Part shown: piece by piece, positions 43,397 to 56,317 of the stretch
How the letters are laid out: each line of letters begins with the position of its first letter
Numbering within the stretch: the stretch's first letter is position 1
Assembly: GCA_022821275.1 (NCBI GenBank)
Contig: JAJEDY010000068.1
Coordinates: 1 to 62,279 of the forward strand
DNA: 62,279 nucleotides
Direction of reading: 5' to 3'
Origin: Candidatus Latescibacterota bacterium
GTDB lineage: Bacteria; Latescibacterota; UBA2968
Made by a program: the position numbers and the translations under genes
The notes under the pieces: model-generated
What the model was told of the DNA's origin: nothing
Database searches by the model: none
The model's input: the letters and a program-made list of their open reading frames with translations, nothing else

Positions 43397-44266
43397 TCAA
43401 TGCATCTCGTGCGTCTCCAACCCGTGCACAGCCCCGGACTCGATAAAATACAACCCATACGCGAGCACAATCCCCATGAGGAAAGCCACAGTGAGCTTGA
43501 CGCGGTCATGACTGTGAAAATGAATTTCCGGCAACAAATCACTCAGGGAAACACACAGAAACGCACCGGCTGCCAGAACCAGCACATAACCGACCACCTC
43601 TTCCTCCCAATGCCCCAGAAGCCCAATCCCCAAAAAAGTCAACAAAGCCACCACCGGACAGAGCATAGCGAACCCGACATTGACTGCTATCCGAGTGCGA
43701 AGGCTATGACCGGCGGCCTGCAACAAACCGATAATAGAAAACGCGTCGAGTGGCTTGTGCAAAAGAATCGCAAGAAACACTCCGAGTCCCGCCAAACCGG
43801 CTTCACCTCCATGTATTTCACCAACCCGAATGCTGGTACCCAGGGCGATCCCCTCGGTCACCGTATGCAGCCCCAGCCCCAGGCAGATACTGATCAGCCT
43901 CCTCCTGGAACTGCTGTGTTCATGTTCGTGGGCATGCTCGTGTTCATGGGGGAAATCACCTGCTTCGTCGCCAAATTCGTGCTGATGAAAATTAAAAATA
44001 CGCAACAACAACACCATCAGTATGATACCAAACATCATCAAACCCACGGCTTTTTCGACAGCACCTGGACCGGGAATCAATACCAGACCGTGCGGCAGGA
44101 GATGATACAGCGCGACGCCAAGGATGAACCCCGCAACAAAACTCATCACTATCTGGATACGCGTATGCGTCATCGTAACAATTGTCGGCAAATATCCACC
44201 GAGCAAAGACGCGGCAAGGATAGCGAGGGCGTATCCCAATAAAAGTATGAGAAAATTTGAATCCAC
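43397..44266 (-). CDS. ZIP-family metal transporter with His-rich loop
   Basis: 289 aa with about eight membrane spans. ZIP motifs in TM4 (LHTVTEGIALGTS) and TM5 (LHKPLDAFSIIGL) provide the metal-binding His and Asp/Glu. The TM3-TM4 loop is packed with His and Glu (HEHEHAHEHEH, ~110-122), the classic zinc-sensing or binding loop. ZIP proteins move Zn2+ or other divalent metals into the cytoplasm. It is last in the leftward metal operon, 134 bp after the multi-pass protein. It opens with GTG and lacks a strong ribosome-binding site. Confidence 0.92.
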   Translation of the reverse strand: MDSNFLILLLGYALAILAASLLGGYLPTIVTMTHTRIQIVMSFVAGFILGVALYHLLPHGLVLIPGPGAVEKAVGLMMFGIILMVLLLRIFNFHQHEFGDEAGDFPHEHEHAHEHEHSSSRRRLISICLGLGLHTVTEGIALGTSIRVGEIHGGEAGLAGLGVFLAILLHKPLDAFSIIGLLQAAGHSLRTRIAVNVGFAMLCPVVALLTFLGIGLLGHWEEEVVGYVLVLAAGAFLCVSLSDLLPEIHFHSHDRVKLTVAFLMGIVLAYGLYFIESGAVHGLETHEMH

Positions 44267-44400: not shown

Positions 44401-44889
44401 TCAAAAGAAAATGATCAACAGAATAATACTGCTCAATCCACCAAGCAGAAATCCCACAGCACTGACAATACCGGCCGCCGTAGCGTAATCGGCGAGGCGA
44501 AAAGTCTGTTCTTCAACCGTAAACATCACCTGTGTTCGGTCAATCTCGCCATCGACAAACCGTTTCAATGCATTCTCTGCACCGTGAGCCTCCTTGACCG
44601 AGACCACGGCGACCAGGATCATAGCCATAGCTGATCCAAGCGTTCCCACCGCAAACATAAGCAGTGTCAGCAAGGAAGCCCAGTGATAAGCGGGATCTTC
44701 ACCACCCGTGGATGCACTCATAAAACCGATAATCAACGCGGCACCACCTGCATTGCCAAACAACAACAGGCGTGCTGTCTCGGTAATCATCCTGAACATG
44801 GTACCGCGCCGCAGAGCAACAACCTTATAAAGCTCACGCAACCACTCTTCGCCGATCTCTTCGACAGAAAATTCGTCTATATTCTTCAA
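44401..44889 (-). CDS. Multi-pass membrane protein of unknown function
   Basis: 162 aa. A polar N-terminus (~40 residues) precedes four hydrophobic spans: LLLFGNAGGAALIIGFM, WASLLTLLMFAVGTLGSAM with AMILVAVV, and GIVSAVGFLLGGLSSIILLIIFF. A charged ~30-residue loop (KEAHGAENALKRFVDGEIDR) separates the last two. I do not recognise a family. The TTG start overlaps the stop of the periplasmic binding protein (TTGA) and has AGGAG 8 nt upstream, so the two are translationally coupled. The pair may form a sensor-membrane unit. Confidence 0.75.
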   Translation of the reverse strand: MKNIDEFSVEEIGEEWLRELYKVVALRRGTMFRMITETARLLLFGNAGGAALIIGFMSASTGGEDPAYHWASLLTLLMFAVGTLGSAMAMILVAVVSVKEAHGAENALKRFVDGEIDRTQVMFTVEEQTFRLADYATAAGIVSAVGFLLGGLSSIILLIIFF

Positions 44890-46133
44890 GGATGATTCTC
44901 CTTTTCAGAATGATCGTCACCCAAATGGATCAGTCTGATATAGCTTGAACCCGCATTCTCACCGGATTTAAAATGAATGACCCAATCGCCAATCACGACA
45001 GGCTTAGCCGGTGACATTGCATCTTTCAAGAACTGCTCTCGCGTCAACTTATCGCCCATATTCCCCAACACCTCCGTTTTGTATTCCCGCGGCAATGACG
45101 CTGGCAGCGCGCCCGTCAACTCACCGGCCATACGATCCAACACAGCGATGAGATATCGGCCCAATATATAACCCTCCAGACATACCTCATTAAATGGGTG
45201 CTGATGGTCTTCCGGTGACAATTTTACGGCTTGTTGGAACTGTCGCACGACATGACTATTCACATTTTGAGCGTCTGGCATCACCTCGGTCACCACGATC
45301 CTATCACTCGGCGAATGGATCCGCTTCTCCAACTCGCGGGATAAAACAAAGGACAGATTGGCTATGATGTATTTATGTCCCAGAGAATTGGCCAGATTGA
45401 TAATTTCCGCATTGGCGGCATAGGCTCCCACGATCAGGATGGCGTCCAGATCGGCTTTATCCAATGCGAACAGACTCGCATGGACGGCATGTGTATTCCG
45501 CGAGTAGGAGGTCTTCGCCAGTATGGGAAGGTCGCGGCTATCGAGAACCTCCTTGTAGTTTCTCAAGACCGAACGCCCGAACGCATCATCCTGATATATA
45601 ATGCCGAAACGCCTTTTGCCGAGATCGTCAATCATGTGATGCACCTGTTCATAGATCTCGTCAAAGTAGCCAGCTCTCAGATTGATGATGTGTGGATACT
45701 TTTTAGCCTCGCGCAAAAAGTCGGCCCCCGTAAACGGTCCCACAAAGGGAATCTGAGCCGTTCGCAGCACTGGAACAATGCGCTTGGCGGTCGGCGTTCC
45801 CACGCCGCCGATGACGGCGAACACATTGTTTTCGGAAACGAATCTCTCTGCATTCGCGGCTGCCAGATCAGGCTCGTACGCGTCATCTAAAGAAACGAGC
45901 CTCAACAACCTGCCATACACTCCGCCGCGATCATTCTGTTCCTGAAAAGCGGTCAAAATGCCAGCGCGATACCACAAACCCAAATTTTTGTTTGGACCCG
46001 AAAAGCAAGCGGTTTGTCCGAACACAATCGTACTATCAGTAACTCCCGGAGCCGCCGCCGAGGGCAGGGTGAGCACCAACAGGATGAGACAGGAAGCTAT
46101 GCCCATCGATATGGACTTATTGCGCAGACTCAC
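44886..46133 (-). CDS. Type-1 periplasmic binding protein (branched-chain amino-acid type), orphan
   Basis: 415 aa. GTG at 46133 is chosen: AAGGAG lies 7 nt upstream. It overlaps the end of the HflK-like gene by 17 bp. A signal peptide ends near SAAA (~28). Peripla_BP_6 features follow: IVFGQTACFSGPNKNLGLWYRAGILTAF, ENNVFAVIGGVGTPTAKRIVPVL, FGIIYQDDAFGRSVLRNYKEVL and LDAILIVGAYAANAEIIN. Such proteins feed ABC importers or act as sensors, but no permease or ATPase is near. It is coupled instead to SPFH proteins and a multi-pass membrane protein. Three Cys are not spaced as a metal site. Confidence 0.88.
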   Translation of the reverse strand: MSLRNKSISMGIASCLILLVLTLPSAAAPGVTDSTIVFGQTACFSGPNKNLGLWYRAGILTAFQEQNDRGGVYGRLLRLVSLDDAYEPDLAAANAERFVSENNVFAVIGGVGTPTAKRIVPVLRTAQIPFVGPFTGADFLREAKKYPHIINLRAGYFDEIYEQVHHMIDDLGKRRFGIIYQDDAFGRSVLRNYKEVLDSRDLPILAKTSYSRNTHAVHASLFALDKADLDAILIVGAYAANAEIINLANSLGHKYIIANLSFVLSRELEKRIHSPSDRIVVTEVMPDAQNVNSHVVRQFQQAVKLSPEDHQHPFNEVCLEGYILGRYLIAVLDRMAGELTGALPASLPREYKTEVLGNMGDKLTREQFLKDAMSPAKPVVIGDWVIHFKSGENAGSSYIRLIHLGDDHSEKENHP

Positions 46134-47439
46134 TTTTTTTCTCCTTATCCATGGTTTTGCTGCTGTCCTGCATGCTTTCCGCAGCTTTCGTCTCAATCAC
46201 CGCTTGCTGGTCTGCCTGTCGCACGTTGGTCTGGGGATGGGTTGTCGTATGCTCATGAGAGAATACACTGGGCATGTCGAATATCAGTGATCTCATATTG
46301 GCAACTCTCTGGTGATGGCGTTCCGCGCGCCTTTTGTGGAATTGACCGTCCAGCAAGTGTTTGTCCTCATTAACATTTTCAAAAGTATGCGTATCCTGCT
46401 GCCGCGCCGTTGAAAAAGAAGGTCTATCGACGAGCTGACCGTCAACCGGGGGCGCGTCCAGCAACATATCTGCGGGTGTATGCCCCGCGAGACCTTCTAT
46501 CATGTTGATATCGATCGTCGCCTCGTTGCGGGGATTGACCGCAGACAGACTCGCTTCTGAAAAGATCGTACGCATGCGCTGCCAGTACCGCGTGATAGCC
46601 ACTTGCGTTCGTTGACTTTTGTACTCGGCGAGCAGAGCGCGGAATGCGTCGGCACTGCTTTGAGCCTGCACAATGCGTTCTCGCCCCCTGGCGTGGGCAT
46701 CCATCACCACTGCCTCCGCCTGCCCCCTGCTGTGCGCGAGCATCTTCTCCCGCGTGCGGTTGGCATTGCTCTCTGCTTGCGCACGCTCGGCAATCGCATC
46801 GTTGACATCCCGGAATGCCGCAATCGTTTCTGCAATTGGGCTTATATCGACGATGTTGAGAGAGACAATCTCTATGCCAACGTCATATTCTTCAAGAAGG
46901 TCGGTGATCTTAACCAACAGGTGGTGTTGAATGATATTGCGGTTGGAAGTCAGGATCAGATCAATAAAATTCTGCCCCATGATATTGATCAACTCTTCCC
47001 GCAAGAGCATGGAGACCACCTCGAGAGGATCGACAGATTTGTACAGAAAATTTCTCAGATTATCTATCCGGTATTGAAGGGCGATATCCACCTCAAACAG
47101 GTTTGTATCCCCGGACAATATTGTAAAATTGGCGGTGCCACCGCTCTTACTGGCTATCTGATGCTGGACGATCCGCTTGACCTTGCGAATATGAACTTCG
47201 TCGATAATGGGGATGCAGTAGCGTATCCCGGGACCTATGTCCATACTGACCACCTTCCCGAAACGCAGAACCACGGCCTCTTCCTCTTTCTTTACAATAT
47301 AGAAACCGCTGCCCAACACCACAGCGACGACTATCGCGACGAGCACCGTGATGATTCGCCTTTTGGGATACTGCCCAACGAAATCAAAGGCGGCGTAAAT
47401 CATGCGCGTACTGCGCGGTAATGGTTGTTGTTCATTCAT
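46117..47439 (-). CDS. hflK: HflK-like SPFH/band-7 protein with long His-rich tail
   Basis: 440 aa. One N-terminal membrane span (~28-50), then an SPFH domain (~50-235: EEEAVVLRFGKVVSMDIGPG; EVDIALQYRIDN; LREELINIMGQ) and an Ala/Glu-rich helix (RAQAESNANRTREKMLAHSRGQAEAVV). HflK/HflC pairs cap FtsH protease in other bacteria. The last ~110 residues are unusual, polar and His-rich (HKRRAERHHQ, SHEHTTTHPQ), with no family match. It sits 15 bp after the HflC-like gene and overlaps the binding-protein gene. No ftsH is nearby, so its partner is unclear. Confidence 0.88.
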   Translation of the reverse strand: MNEQQPLPRSTRMIYAAFDFVGQYPKRRIITVLVAIVVAVVLGSGFYIVKKEEEAVVLRFGKVVSMDIGPGIRYCIPIIDEVHIRKVKRIVQHQIASKSGGTANFTILSGDTNLFEVDIALQYRIDNLRNFLYKSVDPLEVVSMLLREELINIMGQNFIDLILTSNRNIIQHHLLVKITDLLEEYDVGIEIVSLNIVDISPIAETIAAFRDVNDAIAERAQAESNANRTREKMLAHSRGQAEAVVMDAHARGRERIVQAQSSADAFRALLAEYKSQRTQVAITRYWQRMRTIFSEASLSAVNPRNEATIDINMIEGLAGHTPADMLLDAPPVDGQLVDRPSFSTARQQDTHTFENVNEDKHLLDGQFHKRRAERHHQRVANMRSLIFDMPSVFSHEHTTTHPQTNVRQADQQAVIETKAAESMQDSSKTMDKEKKSESAQ

Positions 47440-47454
47440 CGTTATAGCCCCATC

Positions 47455-48342
47455 TTATCTGGGTATTGCTTTGCTGTCCAGGTATTTGAACAATTCATTA
47501 TCTGCCGGCAGCATGAGCGTCGTGTTTTTATCGATGATCAGATCGTAGCTGTCAAGTGCGCGGATAAACTTGTAAAACTCCGGATCTTCCCGATAGGCTT
47601 TACCCAGCAATGCCATTGCCTGAGCCTCGGCATTACCGAGAATAGTCGTTGCTTCTGCGTGGGCGGCGGCCATAATTTTTTCGTGCTCGTTGATAGCAAG
47701 AGCCTCGATGGTTATCGCCTTCTCTTCCCCCTCACTGCGATAGCGGGTGGCAATGCGTGCACGCTCGGAAATCATTCGCTGGATCACGCTCGGTCGGTTC
47801 TCTACCGGCAAAGTGTATTCAACGATACCGACCCGTATCAACTCAATCCCATAGTTGGCTTTGGCGATCGGCGCGATCCTGTTGTGCATCTCGCGACACG
47901 CCTCGTGCAGGTCCTCGTGCTCCAGTCCCAGACTGATAAACGCATCGCGTGCCCTATTGCTGATGACGATACCGCTACTTGCAAAATAGAGTTCCCGCAA
48001 ACGCTCAACGGCATTTACATCAGTTCGGATGGCTTCGACATACTTTATGGGATCACTGATACGCCACATCGTATAACCGTCAACCAGGACATTCTTCTGG
48101 TCTTCCGTAATCAACTCGTGGGTAAGACCGTTGAGCGTCTGTATGCGCCGGTCAACCTTGTATATCTTCGATATTGGCCACGGCCATTTGACATGCAGCC
48201 CGGGTTCCTTCACAGGCGGCGAGATCTTGCCAAAGTGGGTCAACACGCCTTGTTGCGTCTCATGGATGGTGTAAAAACAGCTATACGCGATTACACCGAT
48301 AAAAACCACGACAATAGCTGTGACAATTCTTTTAAAAGTCAT
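47455..48342 (-). CDS. hflC: HflC-like SPFH/band-7 protein
   Basis: 295 aa. An N-terminal signal anchor (FKRIVTAIVVVFIGVIAYSCFY) is followed by an SPFH domain with HETQQGVLTHFGKISPPVKEPGLHVKWPWP. The HflC-type pattern continues with VDGYTMWRISDPIKYVEAI, RLRELYFASSGIVISNRARDAF and ISERARIATRYRSEGEEKA, and ends in the LPADNELFKYLDSK segment. It should assemble with the HflK-like protein into a periplasmic/membrane cage. It lies 11 bp after the permease-SPFH fusion and 15 bp before the HflK-like gene. GGGAG precedes the ATG. Confidence 0.92.
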   Translation of the reverse strand: MTFKRIVTAIVVVFIGVIAYSCFYTIHETQQGVLTHFGKISPPVKEPGLHVKWPWPISKIYKVDRRIQTLNGLTHELITEDQKNVLVDGYTMWRISDPIKYVEAIRTDVNAVERLRELYFASSGIVISNRARDAFISLGLEHEDLHEACREMHNRIAPIAKANYGIELIRVGIVEYTLPVENRPSVIQRMISERARIATRYRSEGEEKAITIEALAINEHEKIMAAAHAEATTILGNAEAQAMALLGKAYREDPEFYKFIRALDSYDLIIDKNTTLMLPADNELFKYLDSKAIPR

Positions 48343-48353
48343 AATCTTTCTCC

Positions 48354-50663
48354 CTATCGAGGCCGGGCGTTCGCGTTTGTATTCGCTGGCTTACTCTTCC
48401 ACAGCGCGACCTTTTCGAGGCTCCGCTTGTTGGGAACGATAATTTTCGCATTGCCAGAAAGCGCGGTTTCCAGCTTCTCCCGCCACAACATGGTCTGGAG
48501 AACAGTGGGCGCGCGATTCACTGCCGAGGCCACGACTTTTATCGCATCTGCTTCAGCGGCAGAAGTGGTCACTTTTCTGAACGCTTCGCCGTTCGCCTGT
48601 TCCAATTCGTAAATCGCATTTCCATGTGCACGGGGAACTAACGACGTCAAAAAACGCTGGGCATTGATGATAATCCGCTCTCGATCCTCCTGAGAACTCG
48701 AGATTTCCCGAAAAGCACTCATTGTTTCCGCCACCGGGTTAATACGCACCAGATTTACATCGATCAGTTCAATGCTCTCAAACACAGGACGCGACTGCTC
48801 GACAGTACCCGCAAACAAATCTCTGACATGCTGCTCCAGGGTTGCGCGATGAAAACTGAGCAGATGATCCAGATTCCGGGCGGATACAAACTCGCGCAGA
48901 TGATCCTTGATGGCATCTTGAATGATCTGTTTCGGATTTTGGATCTGGTAATGATAAGTATAGGGATCCTTTACGCGATACTGCGCATTGATGGTAAGCG
49001 CGAGAAGGTTTAGATCGCCCGAAATCAATTCGTACGCGTTCGCATTTGTAATGTACTTCACTTCTTTCACCGGCCATTTATCCACCTGCACAAAGGGACG
49101 GGGCGCGAGATAGGACAACCCCGGCTGCAGATCGCGCCAATAGACTGCGCCGAACAAACGTCCGTAGCCCACATGCCCGGGAGGAATCACTGTAAAACCG
49201 CTACCGAGAAACAGGGCGATTAGCAGACCGTAGAACGTCTTTCCCAATGGCGTGGAAGGAGCGATAATGCCCACAAAAGAACGGTTGCGCGTCACGCGAC
49301 CCCAGAACTCTTTACAGGGTTTGGATACGGGACGAAGATTGAGCAACAAATCTTCATAGCCACTCTTAAAAGCACCTGCGCGAAACCGCCAGAGAATCAG
49401 CGCGATCAGGGCAAAAGCACTGCCCCATTGTATGAGTTGAATGGTCGTTGACTCCGAGGGACCGAGATACAGGGGAACCGTCACGCCAATAGCGATAAGC
49501 ACAATATCGATTACAATACCCAGAGCAACAGTAACAGCGATCACCGATGACACATAGATGGATGCAAAGCGCGCCCCAAACTGACTGACGATAATCGCGA
49601 TAGTACCCGTATTGGTCGCCGGCCCGGTCATGAGAAAAATCATCGCCGCTCCGGGGCTGAACCCCTTGGCGACCAGCGCGGCAGCTATCGGAGTACTCGC
49701 AGACGCGCAAATATAGAGAGGCACACCAACCAGCACCATAACGGGGTAGGACAACCAGCGCGCATACTCATTTGACATCAAATCGCTCGGAATCACCAGA
49801 TAGAGCACGCCACCCAGTGCGACACCCACGAGTAGCGCAAACAAAATATCGTCCGCTATCTCGACAAAGCCATAGCGGAAAATATGCCTGACAATCTCTT
49901 TAAAATTCAGATCGTGTTTATATTTGGACGGATCATCCTCAGAAGTTTGTTTATCCTCAACTGGAATCATGTACCGATAAAATTCCGGTTTCACCCATGA
50001 TCCGAATTTGTGCTGACTGACCGCCTCGGTAAGCCCCTTCAACCAGGAATAAAACAACGCCTTCAACTGTGAGGGACTGACGTAGCAATCATCGCTCCCA
50101 GGCACCAGAGGTTCGTGCCCGTGGTCGTGATCATGATCGTGGTCATGGCCGTGACTATGACTGTGGTCGTGATCATGATCGTGATCGTGCTCTCTTGCCC
50201 TGGCCTCGTCGCTATCATCTCGTATGAGACCGATGCAAAAAATACCGGCGACAACCGCGGTAATAAAGCTGATAACGGGCCTGACAACAGCAGCGATAAA
50301 TCCAAAAAACGCATTCGTGACCAGAATCGAGTCCGCACCTGTTTCCGGTGCCGTAATCAAAAAAGACATACAGGACGAACGGGACGCGCCCTTATTGCGC
50401 ATCTCGGCAACTACTGGCACAACCGAACAACTGCAAAGCGGCACGGGCACACCAACAGCCGCACTTGTACTTACGGACTTCAAGCTATCTTCGCGCAACC
50501 ACCGCAGAATGGCCTCACGCGAGATAAATACGTGAATCAGACCAGAAAGAAACAGCCCCAGCATTAGCATAGGTGCTAATAACAGGAACGACATCACAAG
50601 AAAATCGCAGAAACTGGTCACTGCTTGTATTAAGCCAATGCTTGTATTAATTGGAGCATCAAT
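48354..50663 (-). CDS. Cu/Zn-type permease fused to an SPFH (HflK-like) domain
   Basis: 769 aa from the ATT at 50663, 783 from a GTG at 50705 (numbering below follows the latter). Residues ~25-155 are membrane spans with PLCSCSVVP (Cys91, Cys93), the signature of SO_0444/ArsP-type permeases (PF03773). A His/Asp linker (~173-197) is built of HD repeats. The second permease half (~280-440) has YICASASTPIAAALVAKG and MTGPATNTG. A further span (~490-505) leads to an SPFH domain (~505-690; VGYGRLFGAVYWRDLQPGLS) and a helical tail. No ATG start is usable: GAGGAGGTGA is followed 8 nt on by ATT. A promoter lies just upstream. It heads the SPFH genes after czcA. Confidence 0.85.
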   Translation of the reverse strand: MDAPINTSIGLIQAVTSFCDFLVMSFLLLAPMLMLGLFLSGLIHVFISREAILRWLREDSLKSVSTSAAVGVPVPLCSCSVVPVVAEMRNKGASRSSCMSFLITAPETGADSILVTNAFFGFIAAVVRPVISFITAVVAGIFCIGLIRDDSDEARAREHDHDHDHDHSHSHGHDHDHDHDHGHEPLVPGSDDCYVSPSQLKALFYSWLKGLTEAVSQHKFGSWVKPEFYRYMIPVEDKQTSEDDPSKYKHDLNFKEIVRHIFRYGFVEIADDILFALLVGVALGGVLYLVIPSDLMSNEYARWLSYPVMVLVGVPLYICASASTPIAAALVAKGFSPGAAMIFLMTGPATNTGTIAIIVSQFGARFASIYVSSVIAVTVALGIVIDIVLIAIGVTVPLYLGPSESTTIQLIQWGSAFALIALILWRFRAGAFKSGYEDLLLNLRPVSKPCKEFWGRVTRNRSFVGIIAPSTPLGKTFYGLLIALFLGSGFTVIPPGHVGYGRLFGAVYWRDLQPGLSYLAPRPFVQVDKWPVKEVKYITNANAYELISGDLNLLALTINAQYRVKDPYTYHYQIQNPKQIIQDAIKDHLREFVSARNLDHLLSFHRATLEQHVRDLFAGTVEQSRPVFESIELIDVNLVRINPVAETMSAFREISSSQEDRERIIINAQRFLTSLVPRAHGNAIYELEQANGEAFRKVTTSAAEADAIKVVASAVNRAPTVLQTMLWREKLETALSGNAKIIVPNKRSLEKVALWKSKPANTNANARPR

Positions 50664-50716
50664 AGCCCTCACCTCCTCTGATGGGAAGCATAGTATTTTG
50701 ACCACAGATAATTCAA

Positions 50717-50764: not shown

Positions 50765-53700
50765 TTACTGCCGCCGCGTTTCAATCCATTCGTAGATCAC
50801 TGGCAGCAACACGAGTGTCAGCAAAGTCGAAGTGATCAAACCACCGACCACTACCGAAGCGAGTGGACGCTGCGTTTCGGCACCAACACCCGTCGCCAAC
50901 AACAAGGGTACCAATCCGAGAATGGACGTACTCGCAGTCATCAAAACGGGGCGCAAACGCAACTCCGCTCCCCGTCGCACGGCCTCTGCGACACCGAGTT
51001 CTTTTTCGCGCAACTCATTGATAAAACTCACCAGCACAATACCGTTCAACATCGCCACACCAAAAACCGCGATAAATCCAATCGCAGAGGGCACCGACAC
51101 GTATTGCCCACTGATAAAAAGGACCACCATCCCTCCAATTGCTGCAAACGGCACATTGGCAATAATCAGCGCGGCGTACTTAACCGAATTAAATGCAGTA
51201 TAGAGCAATACAAAAATAAAGAAAATCGTCAATGGCACAATCACCGCCAAACGCGCCAACGCCCGCTGTTGGTTCTCGAACGCGCCACCCCATTCGATCC
51301 AATAGCCCGGAGGCAAGTCAATCTGCGCATCGATAGCCGCATTGGCATCGCGCACAAAACCATCGACATCGCGCCCCCGCACATCCATCTGGATCACTGC
51401 GTAACGCTGCAATTGCTCGCGGCGCACAAAAGAGTAGCCTTCCGCAACGCTGACATCTGCAACAGTCGCAAGAGGAACAATCGCACCATCGCTTGTTTTC
51501 AATGGAATGCGCTGAATCGACTGCACCGACGCTTTTGATCGGTCATCAAATCGCGCCGTAATATCGAATCGGCGCACGCCGTCAATCATAGTCGTAACTG
51601 GCTCATTGCCGATGCCAGTGCGAACAACGGACAACACATCGTCCGCATTCACCCCAAATCGGGCGAGTTGCTCGCGCTTGACCTGAATACGGATCTGCGG
51701 CTTGCCGACATTGGCCTCAATCGAGAGATCCGCGACACCTTCAACTTCGGCAATGACATCTTTGACCTCCTCGCTCAACTGATCGAGCACTGCCAGATCC
51801 CCACCGTAAATCTTGGCGGCAAGCGTGGCGCGAACCCCCGAGATCAGTTCCTCTACGCGCATCTGAATCGGCTGGGTAAAAGCGATAACAGCCGACGGTA
51901 CCACCACTTCCAACTCCTCGCGCATGGCCTCGGCAAGGTCTTTGATATCGCGGTCTCCGGGCCATTCGCTCTCGGGCTTGAGTGCCGTATAAATCTCCAT
52001 ATAATTGGCATCGGCGGTTTCGCCTTTCTCGGCACGACCAATCATTGCCACCGTGGTTTCGACCTCTGGGAACTTCGACAGCGCATTCTCGATATCCTTG
52101 GAAATCTCAATTGAATGCTGGAGCGAAGCCGAAGGTATCGAAGTCACGCGCCACATAATCGACCCTTCCTGCAGTTGCGGCATGAACTCTTTTCCAAGAA
52201 AGGGGAACAGCGCCATGCTCGCAACGAGCAAACCCACGGCACAGCCAACCACTACCTTTCTATTCGCCAGAGACCAGGAAAGCAAGGATAGATAGCGCGG
52301 TTTAATGACACGTATGAGCCATGTTTCGCGTTCTCTTTGCGGTTTTAATAACAAAGCCGCAAGCACGGGAATCAGGGTCAACGCGAGCAATAAACTCCCA
52401 CCCATGGCAAACGTGATATTAAACGCCATCGGCTTGAACAGCTTGCCCTCCAGTCCCTCGAGCGCAAACAAAGGCAGAAATACCACCACAATAATCAAGA
52501 TGGCAAAGGTCATCGGATTCACGACTTCGCGGGCAGCAGCCAATACCGCATCAGTGCGGTTGACCTCCTCCGTCTCTGCCCTGCGTTCTGCCATAACGCG
52601 AAATGAATTCTCCACGACGACCACTGCACCATCGACAATCATGCCAATACCAATGGCGAGGCCGGCAAGTGACATGAGATTGGCCGAAAGGCCCGCTTCA
52701 TCCATGAACACAAATGCAATGAGCATTGTGAGCGGAATAGAAACAATCACAACCACTGCGGGTCGCCATTCGCCGAGAAATAAAAACAGAATAACACCCA
52801 CCAGAATCGCGCCTTGAAATAGTGCATTCGTAGCCGTACCCACTGCTTTTTCAACGAGATCGGTACGCTCATAAATGGGTCGCAGGACGACGCCATCTGG
52901 CAGCGACTGATCGATAATGGCGACCTTTTCCTTCGTCGCCTCAACCACCCGGGCGGCATTCTCACCGATGCGCGAGAGCACCATCCCAAGGACGACTTCC
53001 TTGCCATCGCGTGTCACAGCACCAAAACGAAGTGCGCCCCCCTGGCGGATATCGGCGATATCGCGCAAATATACCGGCGCACCGCCTTCGACCTTAACCA
53101 CCATATCGCCGATGTCCCGCTCGTTTCTGACCAGACCCAGGCCGCGCACGAGGTACTGCTCTGAGCCGAGATTGACGTATTGACCGCCAACCTGGCGGTT
53201 ATTGGCCTCAATCACTTCCATGACATCGGTGAAAGTCAGGTCGTATTTGATGAGACTCAGGGGATCCATAACAACCTGAAATTGTCGCTCCTGGCCCCCC
53301 CATGAAATGACATCATCAACGCCGGAGGCCGTTCGCAAGATCAAACGCACATTCCAGTCGTGCAGCGTCCGCAGGTCCATATCGGTAATCGCCGCATTGA
53401 GCTTTTCATCCGCCCGTTCCAGTGTGTACCAGAAAACCTGACCGAGTCCGGACGAGTTGGGACCCATCTCTGGCGTGCCATAACCTTCTGGGATGCGCTC
53501 CCCTACCTCCTGCAACCGCTCCATCACGAGACGCCGCGCAAAGTAGATATCCATGTCGTCTTCGAAATAGACGGCGACATAGGACAAGCCGAAGAGACTC
53601 ACAGAGCGAATCTCTTTCACCTTCGGCAACCCGGCCATGCTGGACTCGATGGGAAAAGTGAGAAGTTGCTCCACATCCTCAGCGGCAAGCCCGGGAGACT

Positions 53701-53854
53701 CGGTATAGATATTGACCTGAGTGGGCGTCACATCTGGAAACGCATCAATCGGCACGGTGACAACCGCACGCCAACCCAAAAAAGCCACGATTCCAAAGGC
53801 AATCAACACCAGGAATTTATAGCGCAGAGAAGTATTTACCAGTGCTTCCAACAT
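50765..53854 (-). CDS. czcA: Heavy-metal RND efflux pump (CzcA/CusA family)
   Basis: 1029 aa, family length. The N-terminal AFPDVTPTQVNIYTESPGLAAEDVEQLLTFPIE, TM4 GIGMIVDGAVVVVENSF and PIERTDLVEKAVGTA-like stretch (reads IYERTDLVEKAV) are diagnostic of the heavy-metal-efflux branch, distinct from the drug pump at 23767. It exports divalent or monovalent metal ions by proton antiport; the metal (Zn, Co, Cd, Cu, Ag) cannot be read from these motifs. Its adaptor precedes it by 9 bp. AGGAG lies before the ATG. Confidence 0.95.
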   Translation of the reverse strand: MLEALVNTSLRYKFLVLIAFGIVAFLGWRAVVTVPIDAFPDVTPTQVNIYTESPGLAAEDVEQLLTFPIESSMAGLPKVKEIRSVSLFGLSYVAVYFEDDMDIYFARRLVMERLQEVGERIPEGYGTPEMGPNSSGLGQVFWYTLERADEKLNAAITDMDLRTLHDWNVRLILRTASGVDDVISWGGQERQFQVVMDPLSLIKYDLTFTDVMEVIEANNRQVGGQYVNLGSEQYLVRGLGLVRNERDIGDMVVKVEGGAPVYLRDIADIRQGGALRFGAVTRDGKEVVLGMVLSRIGENAARVVEATKEKVAIIDQSLPDGVVLRPIYERTDLVEKAVGTATNALFQGAILVGVILFLFLGEWRPAVVVIVSIPLTMLIAFVFMDEAGLSANLMSLAGLAIGIGMIVDGAVVVVENSFRVMAERRAETEEVNRTDAVLAAAREVVNPMTFAILIIVVVFLPLFALEGLEGKLFKPMAFNITFAMGGSLLLALTLIPVLAALLLKPQRERETWLIRVIKPRYLSLLSWSLANRKVVVGCAVGLLVASMALFPFLGKEFMPQLQEGSIMWRVTSIPSASLQHSIEISKDIENALSKFPEVETTVAMIGRAEKGETADANYMEIYTALKPESEWPGDRDIKDLAEAMREELEVVVPSAVIAFTQPIQMRVEELISGVRATLAAKIYGGDLAVLDQLSEEVKDVIAEVEGVADLSIEANVGKPQIRIQVKREQLARFGVNADDVLSVVRTGIGNEPVTTMIDGVRRFDITARFDDRSKASVQSIQRIPLKTSDGAIVPLATVADVSVAEGYSFVRREQLQRYAVIQMDVRGRDVDGFVRDANAAIDAQIDLPPGYWIEWGGAFENQQRALARLAVIVPLTIFFIFVLLYTAFNSVKYAALIIANVPFAAIGGMVVLFISGQYVSVPSAIGFIAVFGVAMLNGIVLVSFINELREKELGVAEAVRRGAELRLRPVLMTASTSILGLVPLLLATGVGAETQRPLASVVVGGLITSTLLTLVLLPVIYEWIETRRQ

Positions 53855-53863
53855 GCAGTTCTC

Positions 53864-54967
53864 CTAATGTACATGACCTGCGCCAAGCGAAGACTTGAGC
53901 ATCAATGACTTGAGGTGGAAAACACCCGTCACGGCGATCTCTTCACCTGCAATAAGCCCGCTGCGAATGACCGTCCACTCGCCCACCGTGGAACCGACCT
54001 CAACAGCCTCGGCATGGAATTCATGTCCGTCCTCGAGCTTGAATACAGTCGGTGAGCCTTTGACCATTATCAATGCCGCACTCGGCACAGCGAGTTCTGG
54101 TGCGTGCGTCCCGGTGACAACCTCTACTTCGACAAACTGACCCGAATGCAAGCTATGAGCCTTATTGGGCACCTCAATGCGCAAGCCCTGAGTTCGGACC
54201 TTTTCGTCGAGGTGGTGATGAAGTTGAATGACCGTGCCTGGAAACCAGGTGATACCATCGGGGATAACCCGCACATTGGCTCCAATACCAATTTCGGATG
54301 ACGCGGTCAGCACCATATGTGCTTTCACCCACATCACCGACTCGTCGCTGATACTGATGAGTACCCGACCAGGCTCGATCAATTCGCCGACAATAAAATC
54401 GTCCTGTAGCACCGTGCCCGCCTGTGAGGCGAGCAAGTCAAAGGTACCGGTCGCTTTGCTGGCGTCTCCCGATTGCATAAGCGCCTCCGCCTGAGCCATG
54501 GTCATACCATAGGCGAGTACTTTGGCGAGAGCCTGTTGTTGTGCAACATGCACTTCGGTATAGCGCTGCTCAGACACGGCCTGCCGACCGAGGGTCTTGA
54601 CGCGTTGCCATTCTCGATCCGCGACAATCAATGCCCCTTGCGCTTCGGCCATCTCAACACTCGAGAGCGCCACCAGAGGTTGACCTACTTCGACTTCATC
54701 GCCGAGTTTCGCATGACGCGCTACGACTTGTGCTGTAATACGCGGGGTAACGAACACAGACCGGTACGCGTTGATCACGACCTCACCCGGAATCCGCAGG
54801 GTCTCGTTGAGCGCACGCGGTTCAACCGTGCCAATAACAATGCCCGCCGCGCGTCGTTCTTCAGCACTCAGTTCAATTGCGGTGCCCTCATGGTCCGCCT
54901 CCTCGGCATACACCGGTTGGATCAGTATCAAACACAGACACACCGCCCAAAATTTTGACATCGTCAT
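53864..54967 (-). CDS. czcB: Heavy-metal RND periplasmic adaptor (CzcB/CusB family)
   Basis: 367 aa. ATG at 54967 (MTMSKFWAV) has GGAGG 5 nt upstream. A signal peptide ends near VYA (~19). The membrane-fusion protein layout follows: IELSAEERRAAGIVIGTVE (typical of CzcB-like adaptors), a barrel-sandwich domain (VVARHAKLGDEVEVGQPLVAL; AGTVLQDDFIVGELIEPGRVL), a short alpha hairpin and a beta barrel. The C-terminal tail ends GAGHVH and the N-terminus has EEADHEG, both possible metal ligands. It links CzcA and CzcC; its stop is 9 bp before czcA. Confidence 0.92.
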   Translation of the reverse strand: MTMSKFWAVCLCLILIQPVYAEEADHEGTAIELSAEERRAAGIVIGTVEPRALNETLRIPGEVVINAYRSVFVTPRITAQVVARHAKLGDEVEVGQPLVALSSVEMAEAQGALIVADREWQRVKTLGRQAVSEQRYTEVHVAQQQALAKVLAYGMTMAQAEALMQSGDASKATGTFDLLASQAGTVLQDDFIVGELIEPGRVLISISDESVMWVKAHMVLTASSEIGIGANVRVIPDGITWFPGTVIQLHHHLDEKVRTQGLRIEVPNKAHSLHSGQFVEVEVVTGTHAPELAVPSAALIMVKGSPTVFKLEDGHEFHAEAVEVGSTVGEWTVIRSGLIAGEEIAVTGVFHLKSLMLKSSLGAGHVH

Positions 54968-55002
54968 CAGGGCCTCCAATACGGTTCTTTGTGTGTTGTA
55001 AT

Positions 55003-56256
55003 TCATTTAAGACCGAGCCAGACATCCACCTGACCCGATGCGCGGAGCCACTCGAACCAGGCACGCCAGACCTGCCCGCGCAGATCGAGGGTACTTTCTT
55101 GTATATCCAGGGTCTCCCCCAATTGCCCAAAATAGTCGGCCATATCCATATCCCCAGCCTGCCAGAGTCGGCGCAGTTGCTCGCTTTGCCGGTCCAGGCT
55201 TTTCCGCCCCATCTGTTCCCACTCATCCCAGGCACTGCGCGATAACTCGTAGCGCTCTGCCGCACTGGTCAAGGAAGCGTGGGCTATCTGCATCGCGTCA
55301 TCGGCGAGTTGCTGCGCCTGATCTCGCTCTGCCAGGGCCGCGATAACTTCATGTGTAAAGCGGTTCCGAATCGGAAGCGGAATGGACAGACCCAAACCGA
55401 TCAACCTTTCGCCATCTTCGTATCCGCCAGTAAAATTCAGCGTCAGGTCTGGAAGCCATTCGCGTCGTCTCAGTTTCACAACCGCGTCAGCCATATTGAC
55501 CCGGTGCCGCGCGGCTACAACCCCGGATAATGCCTGCACCAGAGCCTGTATATCAGCGCCTTGCTCAATTACCTCTGGTAATTTTTCGGGCAGAGAGGGC
55601 CACTGCGCCTCGGGTATGCGCGAGCCAAGGCTGTACACCGCTTGCCGCGCTTCGACCAGATCTGCAGCCGCCATTGCTTTTTGAATACGCGCCTCAGTCA
55701 AGGAGAGGAGAGCCTGATCGAGTTCTATCTGGTCTAACTCGCCGACCTCAAATCGACGCTGCGCCAACACCGCAAACTCCTCCATCAACTGCTGGCGCGT
55801 CTCGGCCAGACGATCGCGTTCAACATCAGTTTGATATTGTGCAAGACCATTGAGCAAATCTACCGCAACCATCCATCGGGCGTCCAGGTACTCCGCCTCG
55901 GCAACGAGACGGTCCAACTCCGCGACCTCGGTAAGCGCCTTGCGTTTGCCGCCCCAATCCAGCGTCTGACTAATCGATAGTGTGCGTATCCTGGCTTGTG
56001 CATTCTCAGCATCCAGCGACAACTCGGGATTGTAAAGAGCGCGCGACGCGGCATCCCTGAGCGCATCACTTGCTTTTAAACCCGAGCGCGCCGCCTGCAC
56101 CCGGGGATTGGAATCGACAACAGCTTGCACAAAACGCGTCAACGCGACACTGGCCCGGGCATTTCCCAGCACCGTTGTCTCGGCGACCAGTGTCGTCCAT
56201 GACATCACTATCAGGCCACACAATACGAAGGCGTGTCGATAGCATAGTTTGGGCAT
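55003..56256 (-). CDS. czcC: Heavy-metal RND outer-membrane channel (CzcC/CusC-like, TolC family)
   Basis: 417 aa. ATG at 56256 follows AGGAGG; a TTG one codon earlier is not needed. A signal peptide ends near VAE (~25). Two TolC repeats of long helices are visible, opening with LTRFVQAVVDSNPRVQAARSGLKASDA and SISQTLDWGGKRKALTEVAELD. It forms the exit duct of the CzcCBA complex. It is the first gene of the metal operon and has a promoter 60 bp upstream. Confidence 0.9.
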   Translation of the reverse strand: MPKLCYRHAFVLCGLIVMSWTTLVAETTVLGNARASVALTRFVQAVVDSNPRVQAARSGLKASDALRDAASRALYNPELSLDAENAQARIRTLSISQTLDWGGKRKALTEVAELDRLVAEAEYLDARWMVAVDLLNGLAQYQTDVERDRLAETRQQLMEEFAVLAQRRFEVGELDQIELDQALLSLTEARIQKAMAAADLVEARQAVYSLGSRIPEAQWPSLPEKLPEVIEQGADIQALVQALSGVVAARHRVNMADAVVKLRRREWLPDLTLNFTGGYEDGERLIGLGLSIPLPIRNRFTHEVIAALAERDQAQQLADDAMQIAHASLTSAAERYELSRSAWDEWEQMGRKSLDRQSEQLRRLWQAGDMDMADYFGQLGETLDIQESTLDLRGQVWRAWFEWLRASGQVDVWLGLK

Positions 56257-56317
56257 CAATCATCCTCCTGATGGTGACAATCAAAAGTAATCCGAAAAAT
56301 TTATCGCGAAATGTATA

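Follow-up and report, generated by a model that had tools for sequence, protein, structure and literature searches.

A permease-HflK fusion in Latescibacterota and a candidate family of SPFH-caged metal transporters

The window analyzed here, a 62,279-nucleotide stretch of Candidatus Latescibacterota DNA (contig JAJEDY010000068.1), carries a gene in which an SO_0444-family permease is fused, by way of a membrane anchor, to an SPFH domain of HflK type (K1), followed by genes for an HflC-like protein (C) and a second HflK-like protein (K2). We think it probable (roughly 0.6) that the three products make up a dedicated SPFH assembly for the traffic of a metal, most likely zinc, with the fusion protein as the transporter-bearing subunit, and we infer that the assembly is a cage. 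The features of the region are:

50765..56259 (-): genes for RND metal efflux resembling cusC-cusB-cusA, immediately upstream of the fusion (TIGR00914, TIGR01730, PF02321)
48354..50705 (-): fusion gene, SO_0444-family permease, membrane anchor and HflK-type SPFH domain, 783 aa (Pfam and NCBIfam matches; full length kept in relatives)
49392..50609 (-): permease domain, residues 33-438, containing PLCSCSVVP (NF033936, PF03773)
50115..50207 (-): His/Asp-rich repeat, residues ~167-197, in the permease central loop (located between the two halves of the permease; aligns with stand-alone permeases)
49239..49391 (-): actual junction of the two parts, residues 439-489, rich in K/R and predicted cytoplasmic (10 K/R against 3 D/E; dN/dS)
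49182..49250 (-): one membrane anchor, residues 486-508, preceding the SPFH domain (hydrophobicity; helix at 486-501 in the model)
48420..49190 (-): HflK-type SPFH domain (K1) and long helix, residues 506-762 (TIGR01933, 7vhp, Foldseek)
47455..48342 (-): HflC-like gene, C (TIGR01932; in the transporter-linked HflC clade)
46117..47439 (-): second HflK-like gene, K2, 440 aa (PF01145, TIGR01933; sorts with K2 proteins from other triples)
44886..46196 (-): Peripla_BP_6 binding protein with a signal peptide (PF13458, E 5.5e-41; kept in the cassette)
44401..44889 (-): 162-aa membrane protein, TM4 (no family match; conserved across two phyla)
43397..44266 (-): ZIP-family transporter with a His-rich loop (PF02535; adjoins Latescibacterota cassettes)

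The fusion is a single uninterrupted frame with GTG as its start codon, as a first-pass annotation made from the sequence alone had read it. The domain search which that annotation suggested places PF03773 at residues 33-400 (E 2.8e-45, 155 bits) and PF01145 at residues 506-682 (E 6.6e-15, 56.0 bits, against a gathering score of 23.6), and the permease signature it had picked out, PLCSCSVVP, lies at residues 89-97. Against NF033936 the permease half scores 323.4 bits over residues 40-438 (cut-off 300), and it shares with the SO_0444 family both the CSC motif and the His-rich central loop; it departs from that family in the added C-terminal HflK and in the zinc-uptake genes that neighbor its relatives. 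The His/Asp-rich stretch had been taken for the linker through which the two halves are joined, but it is within the permease, in a central loop (residues 162-286, with 16 His) between predicted membrane segments 4 and 5. Stand-alone permeases align with the same loop and have a shorter, degenerate HD stretch there, and the position and this shared loop together rule out an inter-domain linker. Every fused cassette permease from Latescibacterota and from the second fusion-bearing phylum has an SWVKPxFY segment in the loop, and the stand-alone forms do not.

The annotation's view of the second half, a membrane anchor and then an SPFH domain, is borne out, with one segment (residues 490-508 by hydrophobicity) preceding a domain of HflK type. 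The SPFH half is HflK-like without being an HflK equivalog, scoring 125.2 bits against TIGR01933 over residues 522-762, below the equivalog cut-off of 159.4. Its closest known structure by sequence is solved HflK (7vhp, E 1.7e-20), and the top solved Foldseek matches to its predicted model are HflK/C cages. Structure prediction, also proposed at first pass, was of partial use: the AlphaFold monomer gives an SPFH fold with a long helix (pLDDT 62-78 in that part), but the model as a whole is poor, with a mean pLDDT of 56. Hydrophobicity and charge predict eight permease segments, which would leave the His/Asp loop and the joint in the cytoplasm and put the SPFH domain across the membrane from them, as in the HflK topology.

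The fusion was found in 24 genomes of three phyla: 14 of 64 Latescibacterota genomes, five of 18 in the second phylum, and five of 284 sampled Myxococcota. In OX638329.1 (L016, the same locus as G007) it is on a single contig of 6.53 Mb, and same-genus MAGs and the relatives L016 and L019 are 91-96% identical to the window. Permeases also occur separately, the layout that the first-pass annotation regarded as usual; stand-alone forms that are 68-82% identical and end at the joint are present in the same genus (G001, G006, G008) and in the same class (G037, G040, G061). The G001 and G006 loci are otherwise syntenic, with the permease followed by the ZIP gene and with the cage genes, cusA and cusB all missing, so the permease can work alone. 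These close relatives are what would be expected if the fusion were an accident in which the SPFH half is a passenger, brought in by an assembly error or the loss of a stop codon. We regard this as barely credible, given that the same joint recurs across three phyla in 24 genomes or more, including a single-contig chromosome, and that it is kept in all full-length relatives in the alignment. A lost stop codon, which the first-pass annotation had named as the finding that would undo it, is excluded, as is an assembly artefact, because the fusion recurs in this way and the junction is under purifying selection (dN/dS 0.10-0.14 over residues 439-485, for genome pairs within the genus). In a tree the fused and the Latescibacterota stand-alone permeases form one clade (100/96) with the stand-alone forms nested inside it, and one old fusion with later losses would suit this topology without being proved by it. 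The scaffold that had been described as placed directly on a metal permease is indeed attached, and is specifically HflK-like. A survey of proteins with both domains had also been called for; beyond the recurrence above, we found no publication describing a transporter-HflK fusion among the open-licence PMC papers searched. Permease frames of 610-750 aa in other genomes of the class were rejected as SPFH fusions, the two tested being ZIP-ArsP fusions. In same-class genomes a ZIP-like segment is fused before an ArsP_1/SO_0444-type permease in frames of 613-633 aa (L039:2452-4353 and L040:2707-4548).

The order fusion-C-K-binding protein-TM4-ZIP is identical in three Latescibacterota families, with all of the genes on the same strand in the window. 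The C product scores 176.5 bits against TIGR01932, above the cut-off of 134.4, yet falls outside canonical HflC in the tree, and K2 is HflK-like and not an equivalog (148.4 bits against TIGR01933, below 159.4); both are well above the PF01145 gathering score of 23.6 (72.0 bits for C and 62.5 for K2). The likely true start of the Peripla_BP_6 protein is the ATG at 46106, 10 bp past K2, and its nearest solved relative is 4kv7, a probable Leu/Ile/Val-binding protein. TM4 has no Pfam or NCBIfam match and its predicted model (pLDDT 68) is too weak for use, but its alignment columns average 82% identity over two phyla and it is more conserved than the neighboring binding protein. Elsewhere in the same genome there are a canonical hflK-hflC pair (G000:C73) and, at another site, a ZnuA-type protein; the annotated neighbors of the cassette include no ftsH. 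In one cassette (L018:12590-13906) K2 is split into two frames, probably by a frameshift, and relatives have intact copies. Stand-alone relatives of the permease are also near ZIP genes in L033 and L087, and in L033 near genes for a CDF protein, a CobW/COG0523 GTPase and a DUF2946 protein.

The fusion-C-K2 triple is common to all three fusion-bearing phyla, and its neighbors in the other two are zinc-uptake genes. In the second phylum zur-znuC-znuB is divergent from znuA, which is followed by fusion-C-K2-binding protein-TM4; co-transcription of znuA and the fusion is uncertain because they are separated by a gap of 240-330 bp. Zur-box-like palindromes are present at zur/znuA in this phylum (TGTTATATTATAATG and similar, with one or two mismatches in L084, L082 and L018), and another such site, TGTTATGTTATAACA with one mismatch, is near a second znuA. 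Two Myxococcota contigs (L117 and L118) have fusion-C-K2-znuA-znuC-znuB with overlapping genes, and in a third (L119) a ZnuC-type gene is before the fusion. A search for Zur boxes near the window's cassette gave 14 matches against 19 expected, using a consensus that is proteobacterial.

A wider search was made with relatives of K1, screened for long frames, and it recovered triples in which K1 carries other transporters, which the first-pass annotation, having correctly seen the fusion of one permease with an SPFH domain, had missed along with the HflK-HflC-HflK set itself. A CDF transporter (PF01545) is on K1 in triples of an Aquibium plasmid, Verrucomicrobiota and Myxococcota (including L144, L152 and L153), a P1B-ATPase is on K1 in Verrucomicrobiota (TIGR01525, 563 bits; L146 among them), and EamA is on K1 in Myxococcota (L154 and L155). 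The P1B-type heavy-metal ATPase-HflK proteins (L146:7637-10609, L147:2940-5954 and L149:130-3009) are 959-1004 aa long and are encoded by the first gene of the triple, and the EamA-HflK fusions (L154:4058-8251 and L155:956-5218) are beside further HflK/HflC-like genes. The plasmid is the conjugative NZ_CP018172.1 of Aquibium oceanicum, in which CDF-HflK, HflC and HflK are beside a heavy-metal P-type ATPase (L096:4415-8060); the record labels the fusion simply HflK, and a search for more K-C-K triples on plasmids gave Aquibium only. In the HflC tree 23 triple-associated proteins are separated from 12 canonical ones with support of 97/94, and K1, K2 and canonical HflK sort into groups (three changes, against a shuffled mean of 24.6); strict K1 and K2 clades are compatible with the data but are not established by them (AU p 0.37 against the free tree). 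This separation and grouping suggest that the SPFH triple is a single ancient system whose transporters can be exchanged.

An unfused counterpart appears to be present in Pseudomonas aeruginosa. PA2434-PA2439 there, which encodes HmtA, two proteins annotated as HflC and one as HflK, is raised in a znuA mutant and has a weak putative Zur site (PMC4542158), although another study is reported in a review to have found no binding of Zur at hmtA (PMC10393844). In zinc-depleted cells the HmtA and PA2437-PA2439 proteins rise (PMC11761036). Judged by the published gene list, this zinc-starvation operon looks like the cassette in having three HflK/C-type genes beside a metal transporter; it differs in that the P1B-ATPase is a separate gene, and the set of permease fusion, binding protein, TM4 and ZIP is unreported for it. 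According to a survey of the SPFH proteins of P. aeruginosa from 2026, a three-SPFH operon (PA14_33070/33080/33110) is patchy in distribution and probably horizontally acquired; the description gives it no role in zinc, with HmtA or in transport (PMC13086221). From gene number and arrangement we take these genes (PaFlo5-7) to be the counterparts of PA2437-PA2439.

These observations suggest a model of a caged zinc transporter. The permease would end in the cytoplasm and one membrane segment would take the HflK-type domain into the periplasm, where K1, C and K2 would co-assemble into a dome resembling the cage that HflK/C forms around FtsH. The covalent link would fix the transporter inside the dome or at its wall, and would guarantee transporter copies in each dome at a fixed ratio of SPFH to transporter. 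The cytoplasmic His/Asp loop, separated by the membrane from the SPFH domain in the predicted topology, may bind or gate metal. The dome would confine metal exchange between the transporter and periplasmic ZnuA, the Peripla_BP_6 protein and TM4, either by limiting the diffusion of metal or by presenting these proteins to the transporter, and zinc limitation would be the likeliest condition. For the fused CDF and P1B relatives, metal may be released into the enclosed periplasmic chamber and be used or recaptured there. SPFH cages with membrane cargo are of a known kind. HflK/C domes around FtsH are established (PMC12048511), as are stomatin domes that enclose AQP1 and UT-B (PMC12407830); the latter likewise surround a transporter or channel, but are eukaryotic, homo-oligomeric, non-covalent and not metal-related. 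The evidence points to a family of caged metal transporters that has not been described previously.

Two other readings of the triple have to be weighed against the caged zinc transporter. In one, the permease is an exporter of Cu or Zn that works with the CusCBA encoded upstream, and the cage only stabilizes it. CDF and P1B transporters usually export, and fused relatives of both kinds occur. The permease scores above the NF033936 cut-off, and S. oneidensis depends on the prototype of the SO_0444 family to grow when stressed by Zn and Cu, a mutant phenotype that suggests efflux (PMC3219624) and is the one basis for Cu/Zn export by the family. This phenotype, CDF/P1B export, the upstream cusCBA, the lack of a Zur-box excess in the window, the weak structure model and the cage-less loci of G001 and G006 all count against a caged zinc transporter. 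However, it is only in members of the window's genus that the cassette has a cusCBA similar to that of the window at its flank, and these genes are outside the conserved cassette; the RND set near the cassette in G058 and G059 is more distant, with CusA 46% identical. Moreover, the neighbors in the two other phyla are zur and znuABC, the window itself has a ZIP neighbor, and the P. aeruginosa counterpart rises under zinc depletion. Pure efflux or resistance thus seems rather unlikely to us, and gene context slightly favors import or retrieval, although family precedent favors efflux.

In the other reading the triple serves regulated proteolysis or quality control, with K1-C-K2 recruiting FtsH and the fusion bringing the permease (or the CDF transporter or P1B-ATPase) to it for metal-dependent turnover. 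The best-known role of HflK/C is to bind and control FtsH (PMC12048511), and the SPFH parts of the triple are of the same HflK and HflC types as in the E. coli FtsH modulator, each with one N-terminal membrane segment. The canonical complex has two subunits, whereas the triple has three, with the transporter on K1, an HflC clade of its own and no adjacent ftsH. The C and K proteins of triples group apart from canonical ones, and the genome keeps its separate canonical hflK-hflC pair. We consider recruitment of FtsH improbable.

Beyond zinc, the K1-C-K2 cages may be a general class of membrane microcompartment, apart from HflK/C-FtsH, in which K1 is fused to interchangeable transporters (the SO_0444 permease, CDF, P1B-ATPase or EamA), so that each cage would be born around its own transporter with a private periplasmic metal chamber; we put this forward tentatively, as a little less than an even prospect. 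The surroundings of the fusion, with the K-C-K triple and the other transporters, are of more interest than the fusion itself. The cargo of bacterial SPFH proteins is largely open beyond FtsH, and here the genes name it: the fusion of a cage subunit with a transporter recurs, involves metal transporters of unrelated families, and is seen in zinc operons. Transporter-HflK fusions make possible a direct test of the idea of a membrane encapsulin, invite a second look at 'Cu/Zn efflux' as the label of the fused permeases, and suggest what orphan SPFH operons, PA2437-PA2439 among them, may do. In L150, L151, L156 and L158 the HflK has an N-terminal part of 270-430 aa with no Pfam match, and the triple is beside a separate P1B-ATPase gene; this HflK is possibly of the Pseudomonas PA2437 type. 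The neighbors in L156 also include CobW/COG0523 and Fur-like proteins.
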